Source: Thalassovita litoralis (GTDB lineage: Bacteria; Pseudomonadota; Alphaproteobacteria; Rhodobacterales; Rhodobacteraceae). From it: a DNA stretch of 39,060 bases. The notes under the pieces were generated by a model. The model was given only the letters and a program-made list of their open reading frames with translations. It searched no databases and was not told the origin of the DNA. The position numbers and the translations under genes were made by a program. Location: assembly GCF_900182725.1 (NCBI RefSeq), contig NZ_FXTO01000032.1, positions 1 through 39,060 on the forward strand, read 5' to 3'. Shown here piece by piece: positions 2,777 to 22,891 of the stretch (the first letter of the stretch is position 1; every line of letters begins with the position of its first letter).

Positions 2777-4271
2777 GGGTGGGCCTCACAATCCGATAGG
2801 CTTCTTTGCGCTGGGCACCCCGTACCGTTGCACCTTCGGGCAAGGGGACAAGCCAGCCATGCCGCTCAAGCGTGGCAATTGCCTTCTTCGCCTCTTTCGC
2901 TTCGCGCAATGAATTGGGCCCCATTCTCAGGATTTCGCGCGGGGTCACATCATCATACCCCCAGCTTTCCAGCAGCCAATGCCGCAGCCGTTCGGCCTTC
3001 GCGGTTTCCTCGGATACAAGCCCCGCTTCGGCCAGCCTGCGGGCTTCGGTCAGGTAGTATTGCGCCAGCGTCACGCCCCAGCCCATCGCCTGCGGTGTCA
3101 CCTGCGGGGCGTCCAGATCGTCCCACAGGGTCAGCACCCCGGCAATTCGTGCGGCCTGTTCTGCGGCTTTGCTGGCATAGGCCCGGACATGTTCCATTGC
3201 CCCACCGCCAACCTGTGACACTTCCACAGCCTCATAGAACCGCCACAACAGTTCTTTGGCCTGCGGTGACAAGGGAAGCCGCTGCGGGGCCAATTCCTGC
3301 GCACTGTCCCCCGTGGGCATGGGGCTATCAAGGACAGCGGCCAACCGTGCCGTGAAAATGGAAACTTCTGCATCGCTGGTGTGGTTGTGGCCGCGCCTTA
3401 ATCGCGTCCCGATGGTGCTGGGCGGTTCGGTAATCAGGAACCGGGCCAGAAAGCCTTGTCCTGCTGCCTGCGGGTCAGCCATCAGCGGGCGGGCGGCAAT
3501 CGGCTGGGCCATCAGGTGCATGGCAAGTCTGCGCCCCGGATAGTCGCTTGCCCCATCGCCCGAACGGATACGGTCCACGGTGTCGCCGTTCCAAAGCTTT
3601 GATAGTCCGGCAATGGTTTTCAGCCTGTTATCCGAGTTCATGGCATGGCCCCCGATGAACCCCCCAGCGTCATCATTAAACAGGCCCAGCGCGGGGCGTC
3701 CGGCCTGATACAATTTCAAAAGGCCCTCGAAAGTGGGTTCCTGTGCGGTGACATTCGGCAACAGCGGGGCGCGGGGTTCCGGCCCCAAGGCCCTCAGATC
3801 GGCTTCGGCATTGGTGGCCTTGGCTTTGTCATTTCCGGCGGCTTCGGTCAGCAAGCGCTTGCGTTTGCCTGTCCAGATTTCCTTTGAGATTTCATATTCC
3901 GAAAAGTCATCCCGATAGGTTTGGCCTTGTGCCTTTTCATAGTCACGAACACCCCGCATAAGCAGGCGGTCGCAGGATGATTTCCGTTCGCCACTTTCCG
4001 CAATGGTCAGGCAAAACAGGGAACAGGGTGCATCCCCGCCCAAGGTTTCAACATCCGCGAAGGGCTGCACGGCCAAGGACGCCACCGACAGCGCGGATTG
4101 TGCTGCGATACCTACCGGGGCCTGCGTTATGTCGTGGACAGCCTCCACCGCGTTCCTGATCGGCCCCAGCGCCTCCACCGGGTAGGGGTCGCCCTGCGGG
4201 ATTTCGCGCAAGAGCGGCTGGGGGCCTTCGGCCTTAAACGGGACAAGTTCGGGTGTGATGGGCGCGTTCAT
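2766..4271 (-). CDS. DUF3987-domain protein of a P4-like replication module
   Basis: A 501-residue protein of the DUF3987 (YfjI-type) family, common beside primase-like genes in integrated islands and phages. Seen in it are the family's entry region (PQGDPYPVEALGPI, then HDITQAPVGIAAQSALSVAS), a P-loop-like ESGERKSS at residues 92-99, and a FNDDAGGFIGG segment. This suggests a helicase-like ATPase fold whose biochemical role is not established. The ATG overlaps the stop of the Toprim gene (ATGA), so the two are probably translated as a pair. Confidence is high for the family, low for the mechanism. Confidence 0.85.
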   Translation of the reverse strand: MNAPITPELVPFKAEGPQPLLREIPQGDPYPVEALGPIRNAVEAVHDITQAPVGIAAQSALSVASLAVQPFADVETLGGDAPCSLFCLTIAESGERKSSCDRLLMRGVRDYEKAQGQTYRDDFSEYEISKEIWTGKRKRLLTEAAGNDKAKATNAEADLRALGPEPRAPLLPNVTAQEPTFEGLLKLYQAGRPALGLFNDDAGGFIGGHAMNSDNRLKTIAGLSKLWNGDTVDRIRSGDGASDYPGRRLAMHLMAQPIAARPLMADPQAAGQGFLARFLITEPPSTIGTRLRRGHNHTSDAEVSIFTARLAAVLDSPMPTGDSAQELAPQRLPLSPQAKELLWRFYEAVEVSQVGGGAMEHVRAYASKAAEQAARIAGVLTLWDDLDAPQVTPQAMGWGVTLAQYYLTEARRLAEAGLVSEETAKAERLRHWLLESWGYDDVTPREILRMGPNSLREAKEAKKAIATLERHGWLVPLPEGATVRGAQRKEAYRIVRPTHAV

Positions 4272-5149
4272 GTGGTGGCCCCTTTCATCATTAAAATATC
4301 GTTCCAGTCGCGCTTATCCGGCGCGGGAAGTGTGCTAACGGTCCAGCCCAGCGCAGCGGCACGGGTGGCAAGAGCGGTTCCAGCGGCGCGGCCTGCGTCC
4401 TCCCCATCGGTGGCGATAATCAGCTTGCCGGGACGATCTGGCAGGCGCAGCCCGGACATGCCGGACGTGGACAGCGCCGCCCACGCGGTCACAGGGCCGC
4501 GCAGCAGGCCGCACAGTAGCGACAGGGTGGTTTCTATTCCTTCCCCCACTGCAAGGGCGTCTTGGCCCTCACTGAGTCGCACAGCGCCCCCGGCGGTTGC
4601 GCCCAGCATGGCCTTATCGGGTTCAATATCCGCCTTGCCGTTACCATCGTGGCGCAGATAGGTGCGGTGAACCGCGAACCGTTCGGCCCCATCTACGCGG
4701 GCCAGCATCGCCGGAAAGCGTTGCGCCGTGAGGTGCCATGCTTGGGGATGAAACCGCAGCGTGTCGGCAAGGGCGCAGGTGATACCACGCCCCCGCAGAT
4801 AGGTTTCTGCGATGGTTCCCTTGATCGGCTGGGCCTCATTCCACAGTGATAGTGCTTGCCGTTCTTTCCGTTCGGCTTGGGCCTTGGCCAGCGCTTCACG
4901 CCGGGCAATCACAGCCGGGTCAGGTGGCGTGTAATCCCCAGCCCGGATGCCTGCGGCAGTCAGAATATCCGTGAAGCTGCATCCTGATTTCTTGCAGTTC
5001 AGCAGCAAGCGCCCATCCGGGCTATCGGCCAGCGTCAAGGCGTTCTGTGTCTGGCGTCCTTCGGGTTGGCAGATCGGGCAGGGGGCCACGCCATAGCGGC
5101 TATGCCACGCTCCCCGCAGGTTCAAGGTGATTTGCTTGGCGTCTGTCAT
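4268..5149 (-). CDS. Zinc-finger/Toprim primase-like protein
   Basis: A 293-residue protein. An N-terminal CHC2-like zinc-binding region (CPICQPEGRQTQNAL, then LLLNCKKSGCSF) is followed by a helical linker and a Toprim domain with GEGIETTLSL and IIATDGEDAGRA. This is the architecture of primase-like proteins of P4-type elements, which synthesise primers or act with a helicase at the island's origin. The start at 5149 is chosen for a GGAGAG site about nine bases upstream; the frame stays open to 5218 without a better site. It heads the operon with the DUF3987 gene. The second Toprim motif reads DGEDAG instead of the commoner DNDAAG. Confidence 0.85.
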   Translation of the reverse strand: MTDAKQITLNLRGAWHSRYGVAPCPICQPEGRQTQNALTLADSPDGRLLLNCKKSGCSFTDILTAAGIRAGDYTPPDPAVIARREALAKAQAERKERQALSLWNEAQPIKGTIAETYLRGRGITCALADTLRFHPQAWHLTAQRFPAMLARVDGAERFAVHRTYLRHDGNGKADIEPDKAMLGATAGGAVRLSEGQDALAVGEGIETTLSLLCGLLRGPVTAWAALSTSGMSGLRLPDRPGKLIIATDGEDAGRAAGTALATRAAALGWTVSTLPAPDKRDWNDILMMKGATT

Positions 5150-5281
5150 CGACCCGCTCTCCATATTTTTGCGGGTCGCCATTGTTTCGACGTGGTTTGA
5201 GCCATTGCTCGGCCTCAATTATTGTGGGCCGGGACGCAAGGTGCTATGTTTGGGCTATCCTACTAACCGTAACAAATACCG

Positions 5282-5307
5282 CCGCCGCCCCATCCCAAGG
5301 GTGGCGG
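5282..5307 (-). terminator. Hairpin after the AlpA-like gene
   Basis: A nine-pair stem (CCGCCGCCC with GGGTGGCGG, one G-T pair) and an eight-base loop lie just past the stop of the AlpA-like gene. The plus-strand side carries a T-rich tail (TTTTCTT); the minus-strand side has a weaker TATTTGTT tail. It probably separates the regulator gene from the primase operon. Confidence 0.5.
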
Positions 5308-5312
5308 TTTTC

Positions 5313-5543
5313 TTATGCGGAGTGGCGTGCGGCTTTCGCATTCTCAATAACGGCGAGGATTTCTGATTTCGGCCAGCGAGACAGAGCGCCCAATTTGATT
5401 GGTGACGGGACAGTGCCATCCGCCACGCGACGCAGAAAGGTGGGGTAGCTCATGCCAAGATAGTGCGCGGCCTCTTTGCCGGAAAGCAGGGGGTCAAGGG
5501 CTGTGTCAGTATTGCGCAGCGGGCGGGTGTTAGAATGTGCCAT
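5313..5543 (-). CDS. AlpA-like helix-turn-helix regulator
   Basis: A 76-residue protein of the AlpA/MerR-like excisionase type. It carries LLSGKEAAHYLGMSYPTFLR, a winged helix-turn-helix motif, followed by a basic wing region ending in SRWPKSEI, the usual sign of this family. Members control integrase or excision and replication genes of P4-like islands. ATG at 5543 is preferred over the TTG one codon earlier; AAAGG lies about ten bases upstream. Its place between integrase and primase is typical of such islands. Confidence 0.8.
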   Translation of the reverse strand: MAHSNTRPLRNTDTALDPLLSGKEAAHYLGMSYPTFLRRVADGTVPSPIKLGALSRWPKSEILAVIENAKAARHSA

Positions 5544-5603
5544 CAAGGTCAGCCTTTCTGTTTTGACAGTTGATCATGGCTGGCACCTGATGATGGTTCT
5601 TGC

Positions 5604-5644
5604 AAAAAAGCGTCCGTAAAATAAGGGGCCTAATTTCACGGACG
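5604..5644 (-). terminator. Rho-independent terminator of the integrase operon
   Basis: A 12-base stem with one mismatch (5611-5622 with 5633-5644, CGTCCGT against ACGGACG) and a ten-base loop are followed on the minus strand by six T. The stem overlaps the stop codon of the 234-residue gene, so it should end the integrase-plus-unknown transcript. Confidence 0.75.
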
Positions 5645-6340
5645 AAGGGCGTAGATCAATACTTCGGCAAAATAATTCATGCAGGGAAATTGATCACGCT
5701 TTCTCCAAATATTCTCGATGGCGGCATAATCCATAGCCATAATTTCCTTCCCGCATTTGTTCGTCGCCTTTGCCACAACGTCGCATGCACTGGTGTTCGC
5801 ACCCCCTGGCTTTTTCGCGCGGTTTCGAGTGGGTTTGAATCCCAAATTCGTAAGCCCTTTAATCTGATTTACAATTAGCACGTCACGGGCGATATATTTG
5901 TTACGACCGGAGCCTTTCGATTTGGCGGGCTGCTTGACGAGGCCGAAATACTCCTTTCGTTTCCAGTCGTCCAAGGCTTCATATGAGCCTTGTGGGGTTA
6001 TCATGCACAAAAATCGAAGTACAATAAACGCTGCGTAATCTTGACTTGCCCTGTCGATGACGGTCGCCACTTCTTCTGGTGAAGGGCCTAAGCCACTGAA
6101 GTAGCGCGGGAACTCAACGATGGCTTCAGCGAACTCGCTACCTGGTCCGTTTTCGGCCAAGCCAAATGGGGCAAATGATTGTGCCTGTGTCGCAAATACA
6201 TATGCCACCTTGGAAACGGCTTCGTCAAAGCTGATGGAGCAACCGATATATTTTTTATGCCAATCACGAGTATCGACACGGCTGGGGATCTTTTGAATGA
6301 GCGCCCGTAAGACGCTCTTGTCCACTTCTCGCTTATCCAT
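5636..6340 (-). CDS. Unknown 234-residue protein coupled to the integrase
   Basis: Not recognised. Its ATG follows the integrase stop directly with no gap (TGAATG), and a terminator overlaps its own stop, so the two genes form a closed two-gene unit. There is no signal peptide or membrane segment. The middle holds a mildly hydrophobic helix region (YAAFIVLRFLCMI). The C-terminal half is basic and Lys/Arg-rich (KQPAKSKGSGRNKY, KPTRNRAKKPGG), which may bind nucleic acid. It could be an accessory factor for recombination or a cargo or defence gene; neither is shown. Confidence 0.7.
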   Translation of the reverse strand: MDKREVDKSVLRALIQKIPSRVDTRDWHKKYIGCSISFDEAVSKVAYVFATQAQSFAPFGLAENGPGSEFAEAIVEFPRYFSGLGPSPEEVATVIDRASQDYAAFIVLRFLCMITPQGSYEALDDWKRKEYFGLVKQPAKSKGSGRNKYIARDVLIVNQIKGLTNLGFKPTRNRAKKPGGANTSACDVVAKATNKCGKEIMAMDYAAIENIWRKRDQFPCMNYFAEVLIYALRP

Positions 6341-7534
6341 TCAGTTTTTCCCCCACGACCTAACTACTTGCCCAGATTGCCCCGTGATGTATTGCGCCCA
6401 GCGTTCATGCAGAACGCGGCGTTGCTCTAAATAATCCGTACGTCTGTAAGCGCGTTCAACGCTGCCCCCGACAGTGTGACCGATAGCGGTTTCCGCTACC
6501 TCGAACGGCGTATTCGTGGTATCTGCAGTCCAATCTCGAAATGACGAGCGAAACCCGTGTGGGCGATAGTCTATGCCCTTGTCGGACATGTGCTTGCTCA
6601 TAGTGGCGTCTGAAATCACGCCCTTACGGGTGCCGGGGAAAAGAAATCCGTTCCGTTCATGAAGCTTGGCCGCTTGCACCACGGCCCGCGCCTCTTGCGA
6701 AAGCGGCACCTTGAAATCTGTTGTCATGCCTTTGCGGCCCTTCACCAGATCGGCGGGAATGGTCCAAACGTTTCCCTCGAATTGATCCAGATGGGCGAAA
6801 CGGATCGGGGCAGAACGAACCCCAGTAAGGATAAGCAACCGCAAGGCAAGCTGAGTTACGGTGCCATCAGTCAATGAGTGATAGAAGGCGGGAACATCAG
6901 CCCACGGCATGGCGGGAATGTGTTTTGCCTCATGCCGTTGTTTGCCCAGCAGGGCGCGGGCCTTTTCCGGGGCCTGTAGATCAACATCAAGGCCCAGCGC
7001 GGCACCATGCTTCAGACAGAGGCTAAGACGGTTCAGGGCTTTCTTGGCGGTTTCTGCTTTGCTGTGCCAGATTGGGGACAATGTGTCCCGAATGTCGATC
7101 TGATCAATATCCGAAACCGGCATTTTGCCCAGCCGGGGTAGAACGTGAAGTTCCAAAGGGCTAAACCAGCGCCCCGCCTTTCCATCGCCTTTCAGTTCAG
7201 CTTTGCGGGCTTCGAAAGCGTCAATCGCCACATCGCTCAACATGTGCAGGTTTCGGACGGCCTCACGCTTGGCTTTTTCGCGCTCTTTTATCGGATCCAG
7301 CCCGTCTTGTGCGATTGCTCTTGCCCGATCCGCTTTCTTGCGGGCCTCTGACAAGGAAATATCAGGGAAGCCGCCCAGCCCCATTTCCCGGCGCTTGCCG
7401 TGAACAGTGACACGGAAAACCCATTTCCCGGATATGCGGTTTGTCTTGTACAGCCACAAGCCTCCGCCATCGGCAAACTTGCCTGCCCCAAGGGACGCCG
7501 CGCCCTTCGCACTTAGGCGGTTTCGCGCTCTCAT
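6341..7534 (-). CDS. P4-type tyrosine-family site-specific integrase
   Basis: A 397-residue integrase, full length for the family. The N-terminal DUF4102-type arm-binding domain spans about residues 1-90 (GKFADGGGLWLYK, MGLGGFPDISLSEARKKA). A core-binding region and the catalytic domain follow. The catalytic set is visible: Arg240 in LTGVR, Lys275 in DFKVPLS, His326 and Arg329 in HGFRSSFR, His353 in IGHTVGG, and the likely nucleophile Tyr363 in ERAYRRTDY. It integrates and excises the island, usually at the 3' end of a tRNA gene. The tRNA-Leu-like fragment 180 bases upstream of its start fits this. It is co-transcribed with the unknown gene behind it. Confidence 0.95.
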   Translation of the reverse strand: MRARNRLSAKGAASLGAGKFADGGGLWLYKTNRISGKWVFRVTVHGKRREMGLGGFPDISLSEARKKADRARAIAQDGLDPIKEREKAKREAVRNLHMLSDVAIDAFEARKAELKGDGKAGRWFSPLELHVLPRLGKMPVSDIDQIDIRDTLSPIWHSKAETAKKALNRLSLCLKHGAALGLDVDLQAPEKARALLGKQRHEAKHIPAMPWADVPAFYHSLTDGTVTQLALRLLILTGVRSAPIRFAHLDQFEGNVWTIPADLVKGRKGMTTDFKVPLSQEARAVVQAAKLHERNGFLFPGTRKGVISDATMSKHMSDKGIDYRPHGFRSSFRDWTADTTNTPFEVAETAIGHTVGGSVERAYRRTDYLEQRRVLHERWAQYITGQSGQVVRSWGKN

Positions 7535-7834: not shown

Positions 7835-8731
7835 TTAAATTTGCAAAAGCGTACCGCTATCCGTGGCCAGCAAGGCAGAGGTCTGGGGATGGTGGGGCAG
7901 GGTGGCCCTGATGTTCTGCGGGGACATAAGGCAAAATGCGGTGGATAGTGCGTCAGCCAGTCCAGCGTGCGGTGCTGTCACCGTGACCGAGGACCAATCT
8001 GTGTTGTTTTCGCTGTCTTGTGGATTCAAGATATGGGGGTGGCCGCGCAACAGGGTGGCGGCGGGGGCGCTGGTGGCGATGGCGCGGTTTTGCAAGATTT
8101 GCGTATGGACCTGTCCATGCCGGGGGTCTGTCACCCCCATACGAAAGGGGCCGCCGATGGCGGCAAATTCGCCGATATTGACCAGCACCCGTGTCAGCCC
8201 CAGCCCGCGCAGGCGGGTTGCGATACGATCAGTCACAAAGCCCTGTGCAATGCCGTTCAGCGTGAGCGATTGACCGGGTGCCAGACGGATCTGGGTGTCG
8301 GTTACGCGTACACGGTTCCAGCCTATCAGATGGCGGACCGTGGCGGGGTCTGCGCCGCTTGCCAAGGCCTGCCACAGGGGCTGAACCGTTGGATCAAATG
8401 CGCCGCTCGTGGTGGTGTGGACTGCGTCAACCTGCCGAAGCAGGGCGACAAAATCCGGGTCCGGGTGATCCAATCGCCCGGTTGCATTCAATTGCGAGAG
8501 GGCCGATCCGGGTTTGTAGAGGCTGAACTGCGCTTCGGCCCGGATAAGTTCCTGTTGCACAATGGCAATGGCCTGATGGGCCAGCGGTGCAGGGGCGTGC
8601 AGGGTCAACGTTGCGTCTGCCCCCAATGCTGTGCCCTGCCAGCGGATCGGTTCGGCCCTAGCGGGCAGCGCCAATGCAGCGGCGGAGATTACCAGAAAGC
8701 GGCGGCGGGTCAGGGTGGGGCGCGGGGTCAT
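7835..8731 (-). CDS. apbE: FAD:protein FMN transferase (ApbE family), Tat-exported
   Basis: A 298-residue protein with a twin-arginine signal (TRRRFLVISAAALALPARA), so it acts in the periplasm. ApbE proteins attach FMN from FAD covalently to a Thr of target proteins. Family features seen are SGAFDPTVQPLW near residue 136-147 and LNGIAQGFVTDRI, the region that binds flavin and Mg. The start codon overlaps the stop of the NosR-like gene by four bases. That protein has an FMN-attachment-like motif, so it is the probable substrate. Size and motifs are normal. Confidence 0.93.
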   Translation of the reverse strand: MTPRPTLTRRRFLVISAAALALPARAEPIRWQGTALGADATLTLHAPAPLAHQAIAIVQQELIRAEAQFSLYKPGSALSQLNATGRLDHPDPDFVALLRQVDAVHTTTSGAFDPTVQPLWQALASGADPATVRHLIGWNRVRVTDTQIRLAPGQSLTLNGIAQGFVTDRIATRLRGLGLTRVLVNIGEFAAIGGPFRMGVTDPRHGQVHTQILQNRAIATSAPAATLLRGHPHILNPQDSENNTDWSSVTVTAPHAGLADALSTAFCLMSPQNIRATLPHHPQTSALLATDSGTLLQI

Positions 8732-10809
8732 TCGGCGGCTTTCAATCTGTCGGCCTTCCGCGTGGCCAATATCAGCGGGACGCAGCGGGTTTGGTCATCA
8801 TGGATGGAAACGCAATCAAGGCATTGAAAGCATTCTGAATAATCTATGTCGCCCTTGGGGGTGATGGCCTGATAACGGCATTTGACCCGGCATAGTTGGC
8901 AGGGAGAGCCACAGGCGTCGCGGCGGGCAATCCAGTCGCGGCCCCGCAACAGCCCGCCCAATGCCATCACGGCCCCCAGTGGGCAGACATAACGGCAGAA
9001 GCCTTTGAATAGCACCATAGACAGCAGTAGCAGCCCCGCCGCATAGGCGACATAATACCAGTCGCGTATGAAATAGGTGGTGATGGCGGTTTTGAACGGC
9101 TCCACCTCGGCCACGGTATCGACATGGTCGGGGGCGATGATCACGACTCCGATCATGCCCGCCAGAACCAGATATTTCAGGCGTTTCAGCCGCGCATCCC
9201 AGCGGGCGGGCAGGGTATATTGCGGCAGGTGCAGCAGGCGGCCCAGATGATGCGCAAATTCCTGCATCGCGCCGAACGGACACAGCCACCCGCAAAATAA
9301 TCCGCGCCCCCACAGGATGAAACCCAACAGTGTGACGCCCCAGATCAACAGGGAAAACGGATCATACAGCAGGAACCCGAAGCTGCCGCCCTCGATCCCG
9401 GTGCGCAGGACGCCCAGCACGGTCACGATGGACAATTGCCCCTGACCCCACCAACCGACAAAGCCAATGACCCCTGCCAGAATGGTCAGCCGCAGCGGTG
9501 TCAGCACCCGGCGCGTGGCCATCCCGCTTTGCCGCCAGAACAAGCCCGCCAGAAGTAGCACCAGAAAGCCGGACAACAAGAGCAGATCGGTGGCACGGTT
9601 GCGCAGTGCTTCTTGCCACGGGGGGATGGTGCGGGGGGCTTCGGGGCGGGTGTAGAACCGGCTTGGGCCGGTATGCGGCACATCAAGCGTGACGCTGCCG
9701 GTTTCTGGCTGAAACATCCCATGTTCGCGTAGCGCGCTGACATGCAGCACCCACGGGCTGGCCGGGTCAAAACCCAGCCGCCGGTCCGTGCGCAGGATCA
9801 GGGCGCGGCCATCCAGCAGCGGATCGGGCAGGTCGTCGCGCAGTTCAATCAACAGATCGGAATCGCGCAGCGCCACAGGAAACCCGCCTTGTTCCGCGCT
9901 GATCAGATCGGGGGCGGTGTTGCGCACGAAATCCGGGCCGACCAGTCCATGCCGGGCGGTTTCGATCAGCAGGATCGGTTCGTCATAGGGGGAAATGGTC
10001 AGGAACGCCTGTAACTCCTTTATCCCCGCGGCGCTGAGTACCGCCTGCGCGACGGACGGCGGGCCAATATCCACCACCCACAGATCCAGATAGGGGGCGT
10101 CCGGGTCATCCTTGGCCTCGGGGTCGTCATCTTCCCACAGGGTTCCGGCGAACAGCGCGTCAATGTCATGGTTGCTGATGCGTTTGTGAGTCACGATCCC
10201 CTGTGCCACCAGATCATTCCACGTCAGGGTTTCCTGCACGGATGGGTCTGGATAGGCCGGTGGCTCCAGCGACAGCCCTTCCATTTTTTCGCGGGCCACG
10301 GCCAGCGCCGCCCCCATGATGGATTCATGCGCGATCCGCACGCTGGCGGTGGCCTTCGTGACTCCATCCAGATAAACCAGCGACGATCCCTGACCCGCCC
10401 CGCCATAGGGCGTTCCCACCACGATGGACGAGGCGATGGACAATCCCCGGTATTGTTCCAGAAACTGATTTAACGGCGCTTCGCCCAGACCGGACACAAA
10501 AATTGGTTCGTTATGTTCGATCAGCCGCACATCCAGAAACGTGCCTTCCAGATCTAGTGTGACCAGTATGTTGATGGGAGCGCCGGAAAATCCGGGAAGC
10601 GGGGCCAGCGGTTCGGTTTCAAACACATATCCGGCTTCGGCCCCGCCGGAATTCAGCAGGCTATAGACGCCCTTGTCGTTCAACGGTTCACCCAGCGAAA
10701 ACGGCGGCGTGATGAACTGTGCCAGCTTTTCGGACGGCAGGGGGCTGGCTGTTGCCAGCAGGGGCCACAGGGGCAGGATCAGAAAAAGGGACAGGATACG
10801 GTGACGCAT
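8728..10809 (-). CDS. NosR/NirI-like membrane flavo-iron-sulfur protein
   Basis: A 693-residue membrane protein. A signal peptide is followed by a periplasmic FMN-binding domain with DGVTKATAS at residues 148-156; Thr154 is the likely flavin site. About five or six membrane helices follow (from roughly residue 410). Two cytoplasmic-loop motifs then appear, CGWLCPFG (Cys506, Cys510) and CRYVCPLG (Cys605, Cys609). A C-terminal ferredoxin-like part has CQLCRVKC and CFQCLDC. This is the layout of NosR and NirI, which pass electrons across the membrane for denitrification. Here there is no nosZ or nir gene, and the gene diverges from pqqABCDE. A link to PQQ-dependent oxidation is an inference. The motif has Lys where most targets have Gly. 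Confidence 0.9.
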   Translation of the reverse strand: MRHRILSLFLILPLWPLLATASPLPSEKLAQFITPPFSLGEPLNDKGVYSLLNSGGAEAGYVFETEPLAPLPGFSGAPINILVTLDLEGTFLDVRLIEHNEPIFVSGLGEAPLNQFLEQYRGLSIASSIVVGTPYGGAGQGSSLVYLDGVTKATASVRIAHESIMGAALAVAREKMEGLSLEPPAYPDPSVQETLTWNDLVAQGIVTHKRISNHDIDALFAGTLWEDDDPEAKDDPDAPYLDLWVVDIGPPSVAQAVLSAAGIKELQAFLTISPYDEPILLIETARHGLVGPDFVRNTAPDLISAEQGGFPVALRDSDLLIELRDDLPDPLLDGRALILRTDRRLGFDPASPWVLHVSALREHGMFQPETGSVTLDVPHTGPSRFYTRPEAPRTIPPWQEALRNRATDLLLLSGFLVLLLAGLFWRQSGMATRRVLTPLRLTILAGVIGFVGWWGQGQLSIVTVLGVLRTGIEGGSFGFLLYDPFSLLIWGVTLLGFILWGRGLFCGWLCPFGAMQEFAHHLGRLLHLPQYTLPARWDARLKRLKYLVLAGMIGVVIIAPDHVDTVAEVEPFKTAITTYFIRDWYYVAYAAGLLLLSMVLFKGFCRYVCPLGAVMALGGLLRGRDWIARRDACGSPCQLCRVKCRYQAITPKGDIDYSECFQCLDCVSIHDDQTRCVPLILATRKADRLKAAE

Positions 10810-10864: not shown

Positions 10865-10891
10865 TGGTCGTAAGCGCGGGTCTTACGACCA
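10865..10891. promoter_or_regulatory. Perfect palindrome between the NosR-like gene and pqqA
   Basis: TGGTCGTAAG and CTTACGACCA form a perfect 10-base inverted repeat with a 7-base spacer, in the 156-base divergent gap. A further related half-site (TGGTCTTAG) lies at 10853-10861. The form suits a dimeric activator or repressor, such as a LuxR/NarL-type response regulator. The protein is not known, and a transcript hairpin is possible but has no T-run. Confidence 0.55.
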
Positions 10892-10965: not shown

Positions 10966-11076
10966 ATGGCCTGGACTGCCCCCAAGATGAAAGAAATAAA
11001 CTGCGGCATGGAAATCAACATGTACGCCCCGTCGCAGGACGAAGGTGGCCGCGGCCACGAGCCGGACCTGTTCTGA
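10966..11076 (+). CDS. pqqA: Coenzyme PQQ precursor peptide PqqA
   Basis: A 36-residue peptide with a strong GAGGAGGAG ribosome site ending six bases before the ATG. It shows the PqqA hallmarks: MAWTAPK at the start and GMEINMYAP, with Glu16 and Tyr20 separated by three residues. PqqE joins these two side chains and they become the PQQ skeleton. It is the first gene of pqqABCDE, 28 bases before pqqB. Abundant translation from the strong site fits its role as a consumed substrate. Confidence 0.96.
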   Translation: MAWTAPKMKEINCGMEINMYAPSQDEGGRGHEPDLF

Positions 11077-11104: not shown

Positions 11105-11992
11105 ATGAAATTTCTTGTTCTGGGGGCCGCTGCCGGTGGTGGACTGCCGCAATGGAATTGCGGTTGTGCCAATTGTAACGATGCCCGCGCGGGTCGGATA
11201 CCGCCCGCCGGGCAGTCATCGCTGGCGGTGTCGGTGGATGGGGCGAAATGGGCGATCCTGAATGCCTCGCCGGATATTCGCCAGCAGATGCAGGCCAGCC
11301 CGCAAATGCACCCCACGGCCCTGCGGGATACGCCCGTGGGGGCGGTTTTGCTGACCAATGGCGATATTGACCATATCGCCGGGTTGCTGTCCCTGCGCGA
11401 ACAGACGGCCTTTGATCTGTATGCCACGGGCGAAATTCTGGATGTTCTGGCGCAAAACCGCATTTTCGATGCGGTCAGCCGGGATAAGGTTTCCCGCGTT
11501 TCGGTGGCTTTGGATCAGCCGTTTGATGTGTTACCGGGACTGTTGGCAACCCTGTTCGCGGTTCCCGGTAAGGTGCCTTTGTTCATGGAAGGCGCGCAGG
11601 TTCAGACCGATCTGGAAGGCGAACAAACCGTGGGCGTGCGGCTGTCTGATGGTCATCGCGTCGCCTATTACATTCCCGGTTGTGCGGTTGTGACCGATGC
11701 GTTGTTGGATCGGATATCAGATGCCGATCAGGTGTTTTTCGACGGGACGCTATGGGATGACGACGAAATGATCCGCACCGGCACCGGGGGCAAAACCGGG
11801 CGGCGGATGGGGCATATCCCGATCAGCGGGCCGGACGGGTCCATTGCGCGGCTGTCGGGGCTGCAAGCGGCGAAAACCTTTATTCATATCAATAACACAA
11901 ATCCCATCTGGCAACCGGACAGCCCTGAACGGGCGCATGTCATCGGGAACGGCTGGCAGATCGCGGGCGACGGTCAGGAGACAGAAATATGA
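11105..11992 (+). CDS. pqqB: PQQ biosynthesis protein PqqB
   Basis: A 295-residue protein of metallo-beta-lactamase fold, the usual size for PqqB. The start MKFLVLGAAAGGGLPQWNCG is typical of the family, and CGCANC lies at the structural zinc site. The core metal motif is TNGDIDHIAGLL. PqqB is thought to hydroxylate the cross-linked Glu-Tyr intermediate. ATG at 11105 is chosen over an upstream in-frame ATG because it matches the conserved N-terminus. Its end overlaps pqqC by four bases. Confidence 0.96.
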   Translation: MKFLVLGAAAGGGLPQWNCGCANCNDARAGRIPPAGQSSLAVSVDGAKWAILNASPDIRQQMQASPQMHPTALRDTPVGAVLLTNGDIDHIAGLLSLREQTAFDLYATGEILDVLAQNRIFDAVSRDKVSRVSVALDQPFDVLPGLLATLFAVPGKVPLFMEGAQVQTDLEGEQTVGVRLSDGHRVAYYIPGCAVVTDALLDRISDADQVFFDGTLWDDDEMIRTGTGGKTGRRMGHIPISGPDGSIARLSGLQAAKTFIHINNTNPIWQPDSPERAHVIGNGWQIAGDGQETEI

Positions 11993-12717
11993 GCCGCGAA
12001 AGCCTTGAAGCCCGCCTGCGTGCCATCGGTGCGGAACGCTATCACGATAAACACCCGTTTCATCATCGTTTGCATGGCGGTGATTGTACCCCCGATCAGG
12101 TGCGTGCGTGGGTGATCAATCGCTGGGCCTATCAGGCAGCGATCCCGATGAAAGACGCGGCGTTCATGTCGCGGGTTTATGATCCGGCAATCCGCCGTGA
12201 ATGGCGATCCCGGATCGAAGACCACGATGGCGGCATTGCCGAAGGTGGCGGTATTCGCCGCTGGCTGAAACTGGCCGAGGCAGTGGGGCTGGACCCTGAT
12301 TATGTGGCCTCTGGGCGCGGGGTGTTGCCCGCCACGCAATTCGCGGTGGATGCTTATATCCGCTATGTGCGGGACATGCCGCTGTTGCAGGCGGTGGCCT
12401 CGTCCCTGACGGAACTGTTCGCGCCGAAAATCCATGAACGCCGGATCGAGGGGTTATTGGCGCATTACGAATTCGCCAATCCTGAATCGCTGTCCTATTT
12501 CCGTAAACGCCTGACCGAAGCCCCAAAAGACGTGGCCTATGGGCTGGACTGGGTGCTGACCCATGCGGATACCCCGGAAAAAGAGGATATGGCCTGCGAG
12601 GCGCTGATTTTCAAAACCAACGTTCTGTGGGCGCAACTGGATGCGCTGTGGGGGGCGTATGTGGAACCAGACCGCATTCCCCCCGGCGCATGGCGACCGG
12701 GCGAGGGGCTGATATGA
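11989..12717 (+). CDS. pqqC: Pyrroloquinoline-quinone synthase PqqC
   Basis: A 242-residue protein of the PqqC/TENA fold. PqqC carries out the final ring closure and the cofactor-free oxygen-dependent oxidation that yields PQQ. Conserved parts seen are [14 protein letters not shown] near residue 18, [18 protein letters not shown] and EDHDGG. Length is normal for the family (about 250). ATGA overlaps at both ends tie it to pqqB and pqqD. Confidence 0.96.
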
Positions 12718-13076
12718 CATCGCATTCCGCAACGACAGGGGCCAAAGATACGGCCCCTCGGGGTGCCGCCCCCTCTGGCACCCCCGTTCCCGACCTGCGC
12801 CTTGGGCCGCAGGACCGCCCGTTCCTCCCGCGGGGCGTGCGGCTGGCGCAGGATCGGGTGCGTGGTCAAACCGTGCTGCTGGCCCCGGAAAAGGCGGTGG
12901 CGCTGGACACGGTGGGGGTGGCGATCCTGTCGCGGGTCAATGGCGTGGATAGTGTACAGGACATCGTGGCCGATCTGGCCACCACCTATAACGCCCCGCC
13001 CGCACAGATCATGGAGGATGTGCAACGCTTCCTGATGGCGCTGCGGGCGCGGGTATTCGTGGGGGTGCAGGTATGA
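12714..13076 (+). CDS. pqqD: PQQ peptide chaperone PqqD
   Basis: A 120-residue protein. The last 85 or so residues are a standard PqqD domain ([44 protein letters not shown]). This is a RiPP recognition element that holds PqqA and delivers it to PqqE. The first 35 residues, rich in Ala, Pro, Thr and Gly, are an extra, probably flexible extension; PqqD is usually about 90 residues. ATG at 12714 overlaps the pqqC stop (ATGA). The end overlaps pqqE by four bases. Confidence 0.94.
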
Positions 13077-14164
13077 CGGCCCCCCACACCCCGCCGCCGA
13101 TTGCGATGCTGGCGGAACTGACCCACCGCTGCCCGCTGGCCTGTCCCTATTGTTCCAACCCGCTGGAACTGTTGAGCAAAGACGCCGAACTGGACACTGC
13201 GACATGGGCGGATGCCTTTCGTCAGGCGGCTGATCTGGGGGTGTTGCAATTGCATCTGTCGGGGGGGGAACCGGCCTCGCGCCCTGATCTGGTAGAGCTG
13301 ACGCAGGCGGCCCATGATGCGGGGCTATATACCAACCTGATCACCAGCGGCATTGGGATAACGCCAAAACGGCTGGATGCGCTGGAACTGGCGGGGCTGG
13401 ATCATATCCAATTGTCGCTTCAGGGAACCACGCCGGATCTGGCGGATTGGATCGGCGGCTATAAGGGCGGGTTTCAGCGCAAGCTGACCGTCGCGCAAGA
13501 AATCGCGCAACGGGGGATTCCGCTGACGCTGAATGCTGTGATGCACCGCCATAATCTGAACGATCTGGACCGCACGATTGATATGGCGGTGGAACTGGGC
13601 GCGCGCCGGTTAGAAGTGGCCTGTGTGCAATTCCACGGCTGGGCCACGCGCAACCGGGCGGCGCTGTTGCCCACACGCGAACAGACCGAAGCGACCAAGC
13701 AAAAGGTGGCCGATGCGGCCCGGCGCTTGCGGGGGGTGATGGCCTTTGATTTCGTGCCACCGGATTATTACGCGGATTACCCAAAGGCATGTATGGGCGG
13801 CTGGGGCAGTGCGGGGCTGAATATTGCGCCCGATGGAACGGTGCTGCCCTGTCATTCCGCCCAGATGATCCCGCATCTTACGTTTGAAAAGATCACCGAT
13901 AAACCGCTGTCAGACATCTGGTACAACAGTGCGGCCTTTAACGCCTATCGCGGGACGGATTGGATGCCGGACACCTGCAAATCCTGCGACCGTAAAGAGA
14001 TTGATTTTGGCGGCTGCCGGTGTCAGGCGTTGATGATTGCGGGGGATGCTGCGGCGACCGATCCGGTATGTGGAAAATCCCCCCAACACGCACGGGTGCA
14101 GCAGATGTTGGCCGATGCCATGGCGGCACCGGAAACCGAATTTACCTATCGCCGGATGGGCTAG
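13073..14164 (+). CDS. pqqE: PqqA peptide cyclase PqqE (radical SAM)
   Basis: A 363-residue radical SAM enzyme that forms the carbon-carbon bond between Glu and Tyr of PqqA. The SAM [4Fe-4S] motif is CPLACPYC with Cys20, Cys24 and Cys27. [11 protein letters not shown] follows. The C-terminal SPASM domain carries auxiliary cluster cysteines ([38 protein letters not shown]). It closes the operon. No pqqF/pqqG protease gene is present, so PqqA trimming must be done elsewhere. Confidence 0.96.
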
Positions 14165-15485: not shown

Positions 15486-17918
15486 TCAGCCGCGCGGCAT
15501 TTTCAGAACGACAGCGCGGCCATTTTTCACATAGCGCAGTTCGGTTTCGCTGATGGCCGCGACTTTGCCGCCGTCAATCCGGTCGCCCACCTGCACCTTT
15601 TTGTAGCGCCCGTTGGACAGCCGGATCAGGGCGCGCCGATCCGATGGTTTTCCATAAACACCGATTAGATTAACCTGCCGTAAATTCAGCGCATTTTTTA
15701 CAGTTGCTTGTCGTGCGACCGACGCTGACGACGGGATGCTGGGCGCAACAGATGCGGTTTGGACGGTCCCTTCGTCATCGTCCGTTTCATGCGCTTCGGC
15801 CTTGGCCACGATCTTATCAAAGCCCGAGGGGCGTTGCCGGGGCTTCAGGGATTGCAGCACGGCCAAGTCGGTTCCTGCCGTATCCTCTTGCTGGGCTTGT
15901 TCCACCGCAGCGGCTACGGCCTGTTGCACCGCTTGCTGGTTGATCGCGTCAGGCCGCAGGCGCGGGCGCAACCCAGCCAATTCCGTGCGTGTCCGACCGC
16001 CAAGTTGATTACGCTCGGTCTTTTCCTGCAAATTTTCGGGACGCGCTTTGGGACGTTTCCCTGACAGCCGCGCTTGTTCTGCCGCGTCCTGCGCTGTTTC
16101 TGCGCGGTTTGGCATGGTGGGGGGCAACAGTGGCGGCTTGCCCGCATAGATCAGCACGCCATCGGGGCTTAATGCGCCTTCGGGGGTGGCTTTGACCAAC
16201 CCGCGCTGATCCATGTCGAAATTCGTTCCCGCCGCCGCCGGGTTCTGCGCCCGCCCCGGAGCAGGGTCGTTCTGCGCACTCAGATCAGGCAGGGCCACGG
16301 CGTCGGTGCCGTGAATGGTTGGGTCAATCGACGCCTGATAGGCATCCGCCACACCGCTGGCATCGGGAACGCCAGGCTGATCGGGGGCCGTTTGCCAAAT
16401 CCCGGTGGTGATATAGCGCTGTTCTGCTTCTTCCGGGGTCAGGGTGTGCGGGGTATCAGGCAGGGCGACGGTTTCCGTCGGTTCCGGGGCATTCGGCCCT
16501 TCGGTTACGTCGCCCGCAGCCTCGGCATCCTGCGCTTCGGCGATTTCCTCGGGGGTGGCGTCGCCGGGTTGTTCTGTTGGGGTGTCAGGTAGGGCCGAGA
16601 CCTGAACCTCGGGGGTGTCGGTGCCAAATAGCCCGGCCAGCCCATCTTCGCTTATGAAGGTGGCCCAAACCGCCATGATCGCCAGAAACGCCAGCAGGAT
16701 CGCCGTCAGAACCAGCCCCAGATGCTTGGGTTTGCCACCAATAGCGGCGGCAGTTTTGTCGGTGCTGCGCATTCCGAACATGGTCATGCGCTGGGTTTCA
16801 GATTGCGGCTTATCCGTTTCGTCCGGAGAGGCGGCTGTCTGGACCGGCCCCTGCTTCGAGGACGTTTTGGTCTTTGGTTTGCTGGCCTCTTTCCCGTCCC
16901 GTTTGAGGGCCGCAGCCAACGCACCGGGGGCGGTGGTTTTGCCAGCCGGAACCGGGGCGATTGGCGGGGCTGTCGCTACGGGGGTGTCCGGTGTCACTAC
17001 GGGAACGGACGGGTCCGTGATCGTATCCAGCCCGGTCTGTGGTGTCGGGGCGGGTTTGGCCGCTGGGGGGGCGGTTCGATTGGCGCGCACGCTGGAAAAG
17101 GCTGGCGCAGGTGCGGGGTTCGTTTCCGGGGCGGCAACTGGTGGCGGGGTTTCCTGCGCGGGGGGCATCGCCGCCGCGTCGATTTCCGCAGCTAAAGCGG
17201 CAGCATCTTCATCTTCGGATGGGTTTTCCGGGGCCTCATCCGGCAAAGGCGACGCAGGGGGCACCTCATCCGCTGCTGTTTCGGGGTGCGGCTGTGCTTT
17301 CGGTTCTGGCGCTGGAATTGGTTCCGGCGCAGGGTCCTGTTCCAATTCTGGTTCAGGTTCGGGCAGGTCGGCCATGCCGATGATATGGATCGGCTGCAAA
17401 TCCCGCATGACGCTGTCGGTTTTCGATAATGTGTCACGCGCCCATTTCGCCACGCCGAAAAACGGTTCACCGGCGAAATCGCTTTGGTCGGGCAGGGCGA
17501 CGAAACTGACAGGGTTGAACCCATGTTCAACGGCGAAGTTTTCGGCTTCGTCCAGCGTGTCGCGGGCTACGGCTGCGATGAATAGCTGGCCGTCATCCAT
17601 CGCCCAGTCAAAGGTCAGCTCGTGCAGATCATAGGGCGTGGCCCCGCGCAAAGCGTGGCTTGCGTCGTCCTCGGCGTCTTCTTCGGTCTTCGCGGTGGAT
17701 GCGATGGTCAGGTATTTGATTTGTTCATTGGGAATCACCAGCTTGCAACGAAGCGGTGCGTCGTCCAGTCGTTCGGCCTTGCTGCGCAAGTCGGTCAGAT
17801 TGGCGGTCAAATCTTCGGAATCAAAGACAGCATCCCCAACCAACAACCAGCCAGACGGTGCGCGTTGCAGCAGCCGGATGCCTTCGGAGGACAGTGTCAG
17901 GGCAAAATTTGGTTTCAT
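15486..17918 (-). CDS. Large single-pass membrane protein with a PilP/GspC-like end
   Basis: An 810-residue protein of unknown function. Residues 1-180 or so form a compact N-domain (FALTLSSEGIRLLQR, LRCKLVIPNEQIKYLTI) that recalls the actin-like or GspL-like start of pilus and secretion proteins. A long Pro/Ala/Glu-rich linker follows. One membrane helix (LVLTAILLAFLAIMAVWATF) lies near residue 405. A second low-complexity periplasmic stretch comes next. The final 60 residues (VNLIGVYGKPSDRRALIRLS, GDRIDGGKVAAI) resemble the PilP/GspC homology region. It may be a fused inner-membrane scaffold spanning to the periplasm, but no pilus genes are nearby. Confidence 0.75.
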   Translation of the reverse strand: MKPNFALTLSSEGIRLLQRAPSGWLLVGDAVFDSEDLTANLTDLRSKAERLDDAPLRCKLVIPNEQIKYLTIASTAKTEEDAEDDASHALRGATPYDLHELTFDWAMDDGQLFIAAVARDTLDEAENFAVEHGFNPVSFVALPDQSDFAGEPFFGVAKWARDTLSKTDSVMRDLQPIHIIGMADLPEPEPELEQDPAPEPIPAPEPKAQPHPETAADEVPPASPLPDEAPENPSEDEDAAALAAEIDAAAMPPAQETPPPVAAPETNPAPAPAFSSVRANRTAPPAAKPAPTPQTGLDTITDPSVPVVTPDTPVATAPPIAPVPAGKTTAPGALAAALKRDGKEASKPKTKTSSKQGPVQTAASPDETDKPQSETQRMTMFGMRSTDKTAAAIGGKPKHLGLVLTAILLAFLAIMAVWATFISEDGLAGLFGTDTPEVQVSALPDTPTEQPGDATPEEIAEAQDAEAAGDVTEGPNAPEPTETVALPDTPHTLTPEEAEQRYITTGIWQTAPDQPGVPDASGVADAYQASIDPTIHGTDAVALPDLSAQNDPAPGRAQNPAAAGTNFDMDQRGLVKATPEGALSPDGVLIYAGKPPLLPPTMPNRAETAQDAAEQARLSGKRPKARPENLQEKTERNQLGGRTRTELAGLRPRLRPDAINQQAVQQAVAAAVEQAQQEDTAGTDLAVLQSLKPRQRPSGFDKIVAKAEAHETDDDEGTVQTASVAPSIPSSASVARQATVKNALNLRQVNLIGVYGKPSDRRALIRLSNGRYKKVQVGDRIDGGKVAAISETELRYVKNGRAVVLKMPRG

Positions 17919-18827: not shown

Positions 18828-19907
18828 TCAGATCGTGACCAGATGATTGTCCCACGCGGCTTTGTCTTGTCGCAGCAAATGCGCCTCTGGGCTGCTGAAG
18901 CGCACAATCCGCCCGGTCCCGGCGGTGGCCAGAAAACCATTGTTGGCAACGTTCAGGCCGCACACGTCCGGTTCTTCGATATGCCATGCAAATTCGCCGG
19001 TTTCTGCGTCAAACACCTGAATCATGCCGCCGCGTGGGCTGGAAATGGCAATCTGCGTTCCATCCCCTGAAAACGCGATGGACCCGGCATAACCCTTCAT
19101 GCGGTGGTGTAAATCTTCGGGGGCTTGCCCCAGAATGGGGGGTATGCCCGATCCGGGGCGATAAAGCCCCACCAGCGGCGGGTGATCCGTTGGGTTGCCC
19201 TGCCATTGCATTGCAAAACCCACCAGCCCGTCCGGGCGCAGCGCCATATGACGGATGGAGTTTAGCCGCAGTTTGGCGTCCAGTTCTGTGATCTCGTGCA
19301 ATGTGCCGTCCAGCCCGACTAGCGCCAGATTGGCCCGCATGGTGGGCAGGTTCAGCGCGGTGCGCCCGCTTTCGGGGTGGGTGTCGATGCCGCCGTTGGC
19401 GACCACGAACTTATCCGTGCCGGGCAGGCGCAGCATGTCATGCGGCCCAACCCCGCCCGAGGCAAATTCGCCAACGCGTTTATATCCCTGCGCCCGGTCC
19501 CAAACCCCGATCAGCCCACGCCCGTTTTCGTAATCGTTTTCCGGGGTCAGCATATACCGGCCATCCGAAGAAAAGACCCCGTGCCCATAAAAATGCCGCG
19601 CCTCGGGGCTGTGCAACTCGGCCTTAACCGCGCCGTTGGAACAGTCGATCACCTGTGCAAACCTGCCGGGGCGGCGGGCAAAGGCCACGACCTCGGCCTT
19701 TTCGGGGTGGGCTGCTGCGGCGTGGCCGCGTCCGGGCATGTTAAGCGAAAACACCTCGGCCCCTTGGGCGGTCAACCCGTACAGGCGGTATTGTTCCCCC
19801 ACCCGTGCCGCCGTCAGGAACCGGGGGCTACCCACATCGGCCCATGTTGCGTTACTGGCGATCCCGCTGGCCAATAGCCCGGCCAGAAATCCGCGTCGTG
19901 TTGTCAT
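18828..19907 (-). CDS. DUF1513 periplasmic protein of the iron cluster
   Basis: A 359-residue protein with a Tat signal (TTRRGFLAGLLASGIASNATW). The body has beta-propeller-like repeats (GHGVFSSDGRYMLTPENDYE, GVGPHDMLRLPGTDKFVVAN, YAGSIAFSGDGTQIAI) and is the DUF1513/COG3490 family, found next to imelysins and DUF1111 proteins. Its role is not known; Tat export suggests folding or cofactor loading before export. ATG at 19907 with GGATGGGG upstream is preferred; an ATG at 19922 overlapping the imelysin gene is possible. It is the last gene of the cluster. Confidence 0.88.
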   Translation of the reverse strand: MTTRRGFLAGLLASGIASNATWADVGSPRFLTAARVGEQYRLYGLTAQGAEVFSLNMPGRGHAAAAHPEKAEVVAFARRPGRFAQVIDCSNGAVKAELHSPEARHFYGHGVFSSDGRYMLTPENDYENGRGLIGVWDRAQGYKRVGEFASGGVGPHDMLRLPGTDKFVVANGGIDTHPESGRTALNLPTMRANLALVGLDGTLHEITELDAKLRLNSIRHMALRPDGLVGFAMQWQGNPTDHPPLVGLYRPGSGIPPILGQAPEDLHHRMKGYAGSIAFSGDGTQIAISSPRGGMIQVFDAETGEFAWHIEEPDVCGLNVANNGFLATAGTGRIVRFSSPEAHLLRQDKAAWDNHLVTI

Positions 19908-19911
19908 CTGG

Positions 19912-20946
19912 TTAATCCCCATCCAAGGCGTTGAACCCGGCGGCCACGCCCAATTTATTGCCGATATTCGCCAATTGCTGTTCGCGGATCAGGTCAATTG
20001 TCTGTTGCAGGATTTCCACCTTTAGCCGTTTGCTGGGGTCTTCGACCCCGGCGAAAATCGGATCATCCAGCGCGGTGGCCTGCTGGATTGCGGTGTCGAA
20101 TGCCTGTTCCACGTCCGACACCAGATTGGCATCGCCTTCGGCCAAAATCAGCGCCAGTTGCCGCAACGCCTGCAAGGACAGGATCACGTTATGCTGTGAC
20201 CGCCCGGACCGCCATGCCTCGGCGCGGGTGGGGCGGGGGCGTTCAAATGTCCCCAAGGGACGACCCAGCCGCGTGTCCGAGGTGAATTGAAGCCCCATCG
20301 CCAAGGCTTTGAACAGCTCTTGTTTGACTTCGTCGGTGGAATGATACGGGCTGTATTCGCTGCCCGGCGTCAGGATCAGGGCGGTGTAGCTTTCGGTCCA
20401 GTCGCGCGAAATGGCGCTGGTTGTGGCGGCAATATCTGCCGTTAGCGCCCGCGTCAGCGCACAGGCATAGCCCGCGTCGGTCTGGAATTTCGGATCGTAA
20501 AGCAGGAATTCCAGCGCATAAAAGCCGCGCGCAGCAACGGAAACCGATCCCATGCCATCCGGCGAGGTGATGATCGGATCGTGATCCGCGAACAGTTTGG
20601 TCAGCGTTTTCGGCGTGGTGCCACGGCTATCGGGCCAATAGGCCAGCGCAAAGGCGCGGTTTTCCATCTCGGTCGGGCCAAAGCGTAGATGGCTGACCCT
20701 GATCCAGTCGTCAAAGGCCGCCCCCCAGGCATTGCGCAGGGTTTCGGCCTGTCCGGTGCAATCGGTTTCCGCCACCTGTGCCAGCCGCGCCGATGATCCG
20801 GCCAACGCGCTGAAGCCCGGCAGAATGTGATCCCGCACCGCTGTTTCCACCACGGGCGGCGGCAGATCCTGTGCCGTAGCGGGCAGGGTCAGCGGTAGCG
20901 ATAGCGGCAGGGCGATCAGGGTGGCGGTCAGCAGGGGTTTCAGCAT
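19912..20946 (-). CDS. Imelysin-family periplasmic protein (second copy)
   Basis: A 344-residue protein with a Sec signal (LLTATLIALPLSLPLTLPATA). It belongs to the imelysin (M75-like) family, periplasmic helical proteins thought to bind or help take up iron. The stretch GFYALEFLLYD matches the family GxHxxE region but with Tyr in place of His, so metal or substrate binding may differ from the other copy at 23202-24473. It starts at the stop of the DUF1111 gene and ends at the DUF1513 start, so these are one operon. Confidence 0.88.
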   Translation of the reverse strand: MLKPLLTATLIALPLSLPLTLPATAQDLPPPVVETAVRDHILPGFSALAGSSARLAQVAETDCTGQAETLRNAWGAAFDDWIRVSHLRFGPTEMENRAFALAYWPDSRGTTPKTLTKLFADHDPIITSPDGMGSVSVAARGFYALEFLLYDPKFQTDAGYACALTRALTADIAATTSAISRDWTESYTALILTPGSEYSPYHSTDEVKQELFKALAMGLQFTSDTRLGRPLGTFERPRPTRAEAWRSGRSQHNVILSLQALRQLALILAEGDANLVSDVEQAFDTAIQQATALDDPIFAGVEDPSKRLKVEILQQTIDLIREQQLANIGNKLGVAAGFNALDGD

Positions 20947-22446: not shown

Positions 22447-22891
22447 ATTTTTCTGCGCCGATGCGGTCATGCAGGCCAAGCTGTGTTTCCAGAAAGTCGA
22501 TGTGGCCTTCTTCGTCGGCCAGCAATTCCTCGAATAGTTTCATCGAGATGTAGTCACCCGCCGAATTGCAATATTCGCGGGCTTCCTTGTACAGCGCGCG
22601 GGCCTCTTCTTCGGCGGCCAGATCGGCCTCCAGCGTTTCGCGGGCGGTTTGGCCGATCCGCAGCGGGTCCAGTTTTTGCAGGTTGGGATGGCCCCCCAGC
22701 AACAGCACCCGCGCAATCAGCTTATCGGCATGGTGCATTTCTTCGATGCTTTCCTCGCGGCTTTTGGCCGCCATCTTGCCCAGCCCCCAGTCTTCTTGCA
22801 GGCGGTAATGCAGCCAATATTGGCTGACTGCGGTCAATTCGCTGCGGATAGCCCGGTTCAGATAGTCGATAACTTTAGCGTCGCCCTTCAT
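22406..22891 (-). CDS. bfr: Bacterioferritin
   Basis: A 161-residue bacterioferritin that stores iron in a haem-containing 24-subunit shell. All ferroxidase ligands appear at the standard numbers: Glu18, Glu51, His54, Glu94, Glu127 and His130. Met52, the haem ligand, is also present (EEMHHAD). ATG at 22891 begins the conserved [12 protein letters not shown]; the frame runs on upstream but that is bfd in another frame. It overlaps bfd by 17 bases and the DUF1111 gene by 41, so storage and uptake genes are transcribed together. Confidence 0.96.

Follow-up and report, generated by a model that had tools for sequence, protein, structure and literature searches.

Which system does a NosR-like gene serve when it adjoins genes for the synthesis of pyrroloquinoline quinone (PQQ) and has no denitrification gene as a neighbour? 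The question is raised by the window analysed here, the 39,060 nucleotides of contig NZ_FXTO01000032.1 (C32) of the 4.11-Mb genome of Thalassovita litoralis, in which a NosR-like membrane protein and an ApbE-type flavin transferase are encoded divergently from pqqABCDE. The pair probably consists of a flavinylated transmembrane carrier of electrons, dedicated to the exa/ped system of lanthanide-type PQQ alcohol dehydrogenases (PQQ-ADHs), and a flavin transferase of its own; "probably" covers the assignment to that system. The assignment is based on the cofactor sites of the protein, its separate clade, its nearly one-to-one pairing, within the family, with a single type of dehydrogenase, its gene neighbourhood and a promoter motif.

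The gene pair and its relation to NosR and NirI

Open reading frames (ORFs), profile matches and cofactor residues confirmed that an ApbE and NosR-like pair diverges from the pqq genes. The two ORFs of the pair overlap by 4 bases. The ApbE matches PF02424 above the Pfam threshold (151.3 bits, cut-off 25.6) and has a twin-arginine signal, RRRFL (by eye). The NosR-like protein matches Fer4_5 (PF12801, 56.3 bits) and positions 29-680 of the 680 of the NCBIfam NosR model NF046105, the latter at 454 bits, under the cut-off of 1000. As the Pfam FMN_bind model (for flavin mononucleotide, FMN) gave 16.5 bits, under its cut-off of 22, the evidence for an FMN domain consists of the threonine motif, an AlphaFold2 model (mean predicted local distance difference test score, pLDDT, 86.4) and the best Foldseek match of that model, the FMN subunit RnfG (7zc6_G, E 4.6e-4). 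RnfG has a covalent FMN domain but is a subunit of a multi-protein complex, whereas in the window protein the domain is fused to membrane and Fe-S parts of the NapH type. A sequence search of the PDB found no relative among solved structures (best E 0.28).

T154, C506/C510/P511, C605/C609/P610 and the eight C-terminal cysteines, which would bind two 4Fe-4S clusters, have aligned counterparts in the NosR and NirI of the same genome. In an alignment of 87 rows, which includes two true NosR (L087 and L088) and from which the short L143 was set aside, 86 have T at residue 154 and one has S; the CX3CP cysteines are kept in all 87 and the C-terminal cysteines in 86, with one gap. To judge from these residues, the window ApbE probably attaches FMN to T154. 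By the definition used in PMC8238504, a PF12801 protein clustered with ApbE, the pair would count as a NapH-like flavinylated system; several independent origins have been inferred for such systems (Meheust et al., 2021, PMC8238504).

The original prediction noted the lack of a denitrification neighbour, and a scan of 17 window proteins with Pfam and NCBIfam indeed found none. The genome has nos and nir genes on other contigs: the nos cluster on C9 and the nir/nor cluster on C1 each carry their own NosR-type protein and ApbE (most gene names by eye). The totals are three NosR-type proteins and three ApbEs, and the window pair is therefore a third pair.

This raises the possibility that it is a spare NosR or NirI for denitrification. 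The cofactor set is the same: NosR, with NosX, has in common with the window protein the threonine for FMN, the two motifs CX3CP and 4Fe-4S motifs, two in number, at the C-terminus, as well as an ApbE in its own-genome cluster, and NirI, with NirX, has the same architecture and an ApbE nearby. The window protein is, however, 31% identical to the NosR and 26% to the NirI of its genome, both of which already have an ApbE of their own, and falls under the NosR cut-off given above. In a tree of 58 rows (IQ-TREE in quick mode, supported by the Shimodaira-Hasegawa-like approximate likelihood ratio test, SH-aLRT, only, no bootstrap) 44 relatives, collected for their resemblance to the window protein, were separated by a branch of SH-aLRT 100 from 11 NosR and three NirI, so that the window protein lies outside both; L087 and L088, ingroup rows in the alignment, were placed with NosR. 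Its flavinylation motif is DGVTKAT, against D-x-x-SGAT in eight of the 11 NosR rows, and at position 152, part of the flavin site, 79 of 87 rows (two of these being NosR) have K and nine of 12 comparison rows have G; about a fifth of the rows in the comparison of flavinylation motif and ApbE lay outside the motif pattern and were set aside. A tree of 33 ApbE rows grouped them by system, with no starred support.

Gene neighbours set the window protein apart from NosR and NirI as well. Relatives were represented by the best 80 of at least 587, picked by similarity and partly overlapping the family set described below; they come from the alpha-, beta- and gammaproteobacteria, with a single record labelled deltaproteobacterium. 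NosZ or NirS was found in the stored flank of the NosR-like gene in none of the 80, and neither nosZ nor nirS neighbours the window gene, whereas of 12 comparison records of NosR/NirI-type genes ten had nosZ adjoining and two had cytochrome-d1 genes. Phylogeny and the company of nosZ were the points by which the original prediction proposed to tell the protein from a true NosR, and on both it stands apart. A spare NosR or NirI is thus the least probable of the explanations weighed here.

Occurrence of the NosR-like protein and the dehydrogenase

The only PQQ-ADH over the cut-off in the T. litoralis genome lies on contig C17 (locus L007), not adjoining the NosR-like gene. It is an ExaF/PedH-like enzyme. 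Occurrence was followed in a family set of 198 genomes of the same family (197 genera), 59 of which have a PQQ-ADH of any type over the cut-off; most of these enzymes were retrieved and compared with that of C17. An exa-type dehydrogenase, at least 77% identical to the C17 enzyme where the next match is at 51%, is present in 40 genomes, the dividing line of 65% identity having been chosen after the gap was seen. The NosR-like protein is present in 39 of these 40; the lone genome without it, G154, is 73% complete and has the gene on a 7-kb contig. At class level the NosR-like protein was found in 4 of 337 genomes (its own and one of the same family included), and all four have the exa-type enzyme. 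The NosR-like protein is nearly always accompanied by an exa-type enzyme; the converse is true in the family, not everywhere.

XoxF-type or other PQQ enzymes were considered as partner and rejected. The family set holds 20 non-carriers with a PQQ-ADH over the cut-off, 19 of which were compared (the fragment in G016 was left out), and 18 of the 19 have only other types, at most 51% and mostly 33-37% identical to the exa enzyme; the nineteenth is G154, the exa-type genome named above. Some carriers have such other types in addition.

The presumed partner enzyme is probably dependent on rare earths (lanthanides), as its residues indicate. An Asp placed two residues beyond the catalytic one is associated with lanthanides (PMC5487730); the C17 enzyme has it in the motif WDYD, and so do all 40 exa-type enzymes of the family (WD-x-D), one of them as WDHD from a stop-containing frame. 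It is also found in 36 of 40 loci with a PQQ-ADH near the NosR-like protein, the other four (L119, L133, L146 and L164) being partial rows without the motif region, which were set aside. The adjacent cysteine pair of the ExaA type, whose role is treated in PMC12997753, is present in the C17 enzyme (by eye).

The original prediction tied the pair to PQQ synthesis, and the NosR-like protein might serve that synthesis or the redox state of PQQ itself. It adjoins and diverges from pqqA in the window and from pqqA or pqqB in 17 of the 91 classified loci of the promoter hold-out set described below, and over the 198 genomes it is associated with pqqC (42 genomes with the NosR-like protein, 44 with pqqC, 24 with both). 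Within the genus the tie was perfect, the same three of nine genomes having both genes, and it then failed at family level: 18 of the 42 carriers are without pqqC, with PqqE above the cut-off in 0 of those 18; 20 of the 44 pqqC genomes are without the NosR-like protein; and among PQQ-ADH-bearing genomes the two are not positively associated. A role in PQQ synthesis is largely refuted by this occurrence and must be called very improbable.

A side observation concerns the supply of the cofactor. Of the 40 exa-type family genomes 17 are without pqqC (G014, G024, G050, G061, G104-G106, G111, G124, G127, G133, G140, G154, G160, G180, G197 and G199), and in the 16 of these searched (G154 was left out) no PqqE was found above the cut-off. 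These 17 likely use PQQ made by others.

Gene neighbourhoods

A locus was scored for an exa/ped marker when a PQQ-ADH, PedF, a PedG-like protein, an ATP-binding cassette (ABC) transporter binding protein or a YVTN protein was encoded in its stored flank. At least one marker was found in 61 of the 80 best relatives and 29 of 40 family loci, within the stretch fetched; a PQQ-ADH itself was found in 41 of the 80. Annotated examples of the NosR-like gene within an exa/ped cluster occur in Ruegeria, Pseudosulfitobacter and Shinella. The survey of neighbourhoods beside pqq or quinoprotein genes, which the original prediction had proposed, thus bore out the quinoprotein but not PQQ synthesis, as pqqB, pqqC or pqqE was found nearby in 17 of the 80, and pqqB in 9 of the 40 family loci.

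The exa/ped cluster on C17 comprises the dehydrogenase, PedF, PQQ_ABC_bind, PQQ_ABC_repeats (a beta-propeller) and PQQ_ABC_ATP, all above their NCBIfam cut-offs; leftward of it are molybdenum-enzyme genes and then other genes. In the close relative Thalassobius vesicularis (L089, 78% identity) these genes follow one another without a break: pqq, NosR-like, ApbE, molybdenum enzyme, coxG, PedG-like, PedF and transporter genes. A comparison of window positions 4268-7534 with L267 and L089 showed that, relative to T. vesicularis, the T. litoralis genome is split at the junction of apbE and molybdenum enzyme, the remainder being on C17. This explains the absence of a quinoprotein near the pair in the window. 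An integrase-like gene (6341-7534; 89.5 bits, under the cut-off of 434) is near apbE at the split point.

As xanthine-dehydrogenase-family (xdh) genes stand convergent beside apbE in many relatives, adjoining it in L012, L013, L014 and others, their molybdenum enzyme might be the partner. They were found, however, in half of the loci or fewer (13-14 of 40 family loci and 17-20 of the 80 best relatives, counted in the loci and not in whole genomes), and this partnership is improbable, if not to the degree of the role in PQQ synthesis.

Among the 41 relatives with a PQQ-ADH, the locus also contains PedF in 31; in the stored flank of the other 10 it was not found at the thresholds used. Replacement of the cytochrome c was considered and rejected: since PedF mostly co-occurs, the NosR-like protein looks additional to the cytochrome.

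Where pqq is not the divergent neighbour of the NosR-like gene, an ABC permease often is (37 of 91 classified loci; L014 12047-12823 and relatives). A FIST-type protein is encoded between the response regulator and the histidine kinase of the exa cluster on C17 (L007 10863-12044); against the model of the nitric-oxide sensor NosP it scored 393 bits, with a cut-off of 450.

A shared promoter motif

The core of a perfect inverted repeat in front of the NosR-like gene is found again on C17, upstream of three genes: those for the cytochrome, dehydrogenase and response regulator. In a hold-out, the 7-mer core was taken from the window repeat and sought in 93 loci, which are related to one another, with the window and L007 left out. 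Of 215 core sites 108 lay within 300 bp upstream of NosR-like or exa genes, a space that makes up 4.2% of the bases and where 9.0 sites were expected. Among shuffled 7-mers the median enrichment was 1.18, although values of 8.0 and 5.2 were seen for two less frequent ones, with 6 and 8 matches respectively. A count of an extended motif (79 of 88 sites) was set aside as circular, its letters having been chosen from the same sites.

The motif common to NosR-like and exa genes, together with the older view of NosR and NirI, first described as regulators (PMC5928378), would suit a redox sensor controlling the exa regulon. But a response regulator and a histidine kinase are already present in the exa cluster of T. 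litoralis, in Shinella and in some other loci, and the electron-transfer cofactor residues are retained. A sensor is an improbable alternative, if marginally less so than the molybdenum-enzyme partner.

Other contents of the window

The coordinates of the gene pair, the repeat and the pqq genes are collected in Table 1. Pfam matches at 18828-24515 identify two imelysin-type proteins, a di-haem oxidoreductase and a DUF1513 protein, a set that resembles iron uptake. The protein encoded at 26172-28346 combines, by Pfam, a pyridine-nucleotide oxidoreductase part with one that is AIR-synthase-like and resembles a selenide dikinase fusion, and the ORF just before it (25100-26146) is presumably a rhodanese-type selenouridine synthase. 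The 810-aa protein encoded at 15486-17918 had no Pfam match at E 0.001; a relative of it, with a SIMPL neighbour, also adjoins the NosR-like/ApbE pair in L134.

Table 1. Positions of the gene pair, the inverted repeat and the pqq genes in the window (aa, amino acids)
Feature	Position	Strand	Remarks
ApbE-type FAD (flavin adenine dinucleotide):protein FMN transferase with twin-arginine signal	7835..8731	-	298 aa
NosR-like membrane protein	8728..10809	-	693 aa; signal peptide, FMN-binding domain (T154), second periplasmic domain, two-CX3CP membrane part, C-terminal 2x[4Fe-4S] motif; signal peptide and second periplasmic domain read by eye from sequence and model
Perfect inverted repeat	10865..10891	.	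two 10-base arms, 7 bases apart; between NosR-like gene and pqqA
pqqA, PQQ precursor peptide	10966..11076	+	36 aa; 72% to annotated pqqA of Ruegeria L012
pqqB	11105..11992	+	TIGR02108, 384.6 bits, cut-off 245
pqqC	11989..12717	+	TIGR02111, 368.6 bits, cut-off 240
pqqD match	12795..13070	+	61% to annotated pqqD of Ruegeria L012; within open frame 12627-13076, start approximate
pqqE	13073..14164	+	TIGR02109, 554.9 bits, cut-off 381.35

Proposed role and direction of electron flow

Occurrence (39 of 40), the exa/ped neighbourhood and the promoter motif lend support to the suggestion in the original prediction of a link to a periplasmic quinoprotein system, though several observations weigh against the assignment made here. 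Three of the 42 carriers have no exa-type enzyme: G028, whose PQQ-ADH relative is only 36% identical and interrupted by a stop, G129, a genome 76% complete, and G198, 99% complete. The NosR-like frame has a stop in G054 and is cut or in pieces at contig ends in G129, G140 and G168. At class level G255, G372, G441 and G469 have an exa-type enzyme (62-65%) and no NosR-like match at E <= 1e-110; they may still hold a more divergent copy, but as they stand they imply that the NosR-like protein is not universally required. The carrier locus L263 has a second PQQ-ADH of the non-Asp type, and L148 and L160 carry a further, 30%-identical PQQ-ADH without the motif. An exa/ped marker was not found, within the stretch examined, in 19 of the 80 best relatives (some of them short contigs) and 11 of the 40 family loci. 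Finally, among NosR-like promoters the motif core is concentrated in those divergent from pqq (11 of 17 loci, against 7 of 37 in which an ABC permease is the divergent neighbour and 5 of the remaining 37), and there it may serve pqq.

If the assignment holds, the system served would consist of the ExaF/PedH-like enzyme, the cytochrome PedF, the PedG-like binding protein, the ABC transporter and the two-component regulator, and this exa system would be the physical partner of the protein. A comparable cluster of PQQ-ADH, PedF, PedG-like protein and regulators is known from Pseudomonas putida as the ped cluster (PMC12997753); the main text of that review does not contain the terms NosR, FMN, flavin or 4Fe-4S, and no Pseudomonas genome was searched here for the protein. 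Motif and family suggest that ApbE would place the flavin on T154 outside the membrane. By analogy with NosR and NapH, electrons would cross through the CX3CP membrane part, between the 4Fe-4S clusters on the cytoplasmic side and the periplasmic FMN.

In which direction they would flow is judged tentatively. An inward route would lead from PQQH2 or the reduced cytochrome via FMN and the Fe-S clusters to quinone, either in parallel with cytochrome c550 or in its place. The pairing of the NosR-like protein with one dehydrogenase type and the 10 loci in which PedF was not found speak for it, as does a published proposal of such a route for a NapH-like protein beside ExaA (PMC8238504, Fig. 5A legend). 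On the other side stand the 31 loci in which PedF, the usual acceptor, is present and the description of NosR and NapH as passing electrons to periplasmic reductases (PMC5928378). The inward route is possible, at somewhat less than even odds. Reaching quinone does not need 4Fe-4S clusters on the cytoplasmic side, and this was counted against the route too.

Outward flow, activating or maintaining a component of alcohol oxidation, is slightly favoured over it, though itself short of an even chance. The leaning is a matter of judgement, made because NosR and NapH are described as feeding periplasmic reductases and because the usual acceptor, PedF, is there in most cases; if flow is outward, its purpose would be activation or upkeep. 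The most specific form of this, a "NosR for a dehydrogenase" that sends cytoplasmic electrons outward to activate or maintain the lanthanide-dependent quinoprotein system in a maturation or rescue step, is rather unlikely. We know of no such step for any PQQ-ADH.

Conclusions

The original prediction spoke of an undescribed electron route. This was too strong, since Méheust et al. (2021, PMC8238504) already report NapH-like flavoproteins beside ExaA and propose such a route; among the papers examined on NosR with PQQ, lanthanides, quinoproteins and NapH-like proteins, the association is described only there, and nothing useful was found on roseobacter mutants. Their systems resemble the present one in having a PF12801 membrane Fe-S protein with an N-terminal FMN-binding domain (a predicted one in the window protein), an ApbE in the cluster and, as in the relatives studied here, a PQQ ethanol dehydrogenase as partner. 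They differ in that the T. litoralis genome has the dehydrogenase cluster on another contig and pqq adjoining, and that PedF is mostly present in relatives. The partnership has thus been partly in print since 2021. Added here are the pairing with one dehydrogenase type, the independence from PQQ synthesis, the separate clade, the co-occurrence with PedF and the promoter motif common to these genes.

Even for P. putida, what accepts electrons from PedF is described as unknown (PMC12997753). The present analysis identifies a specific, probably flavinylated membrane protein whose occurrence, gene neighbours and promoter motif tie it to a single type of enzyme. Lanthanide-type PQQ-ADHs are common in marine bacteria, and their link to respiration is unsettled. 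With this tie it can be asked clearly whether the ExaF/PedH-type enzyme depends on a NosR-like partner, and in which direction the electrons pass.

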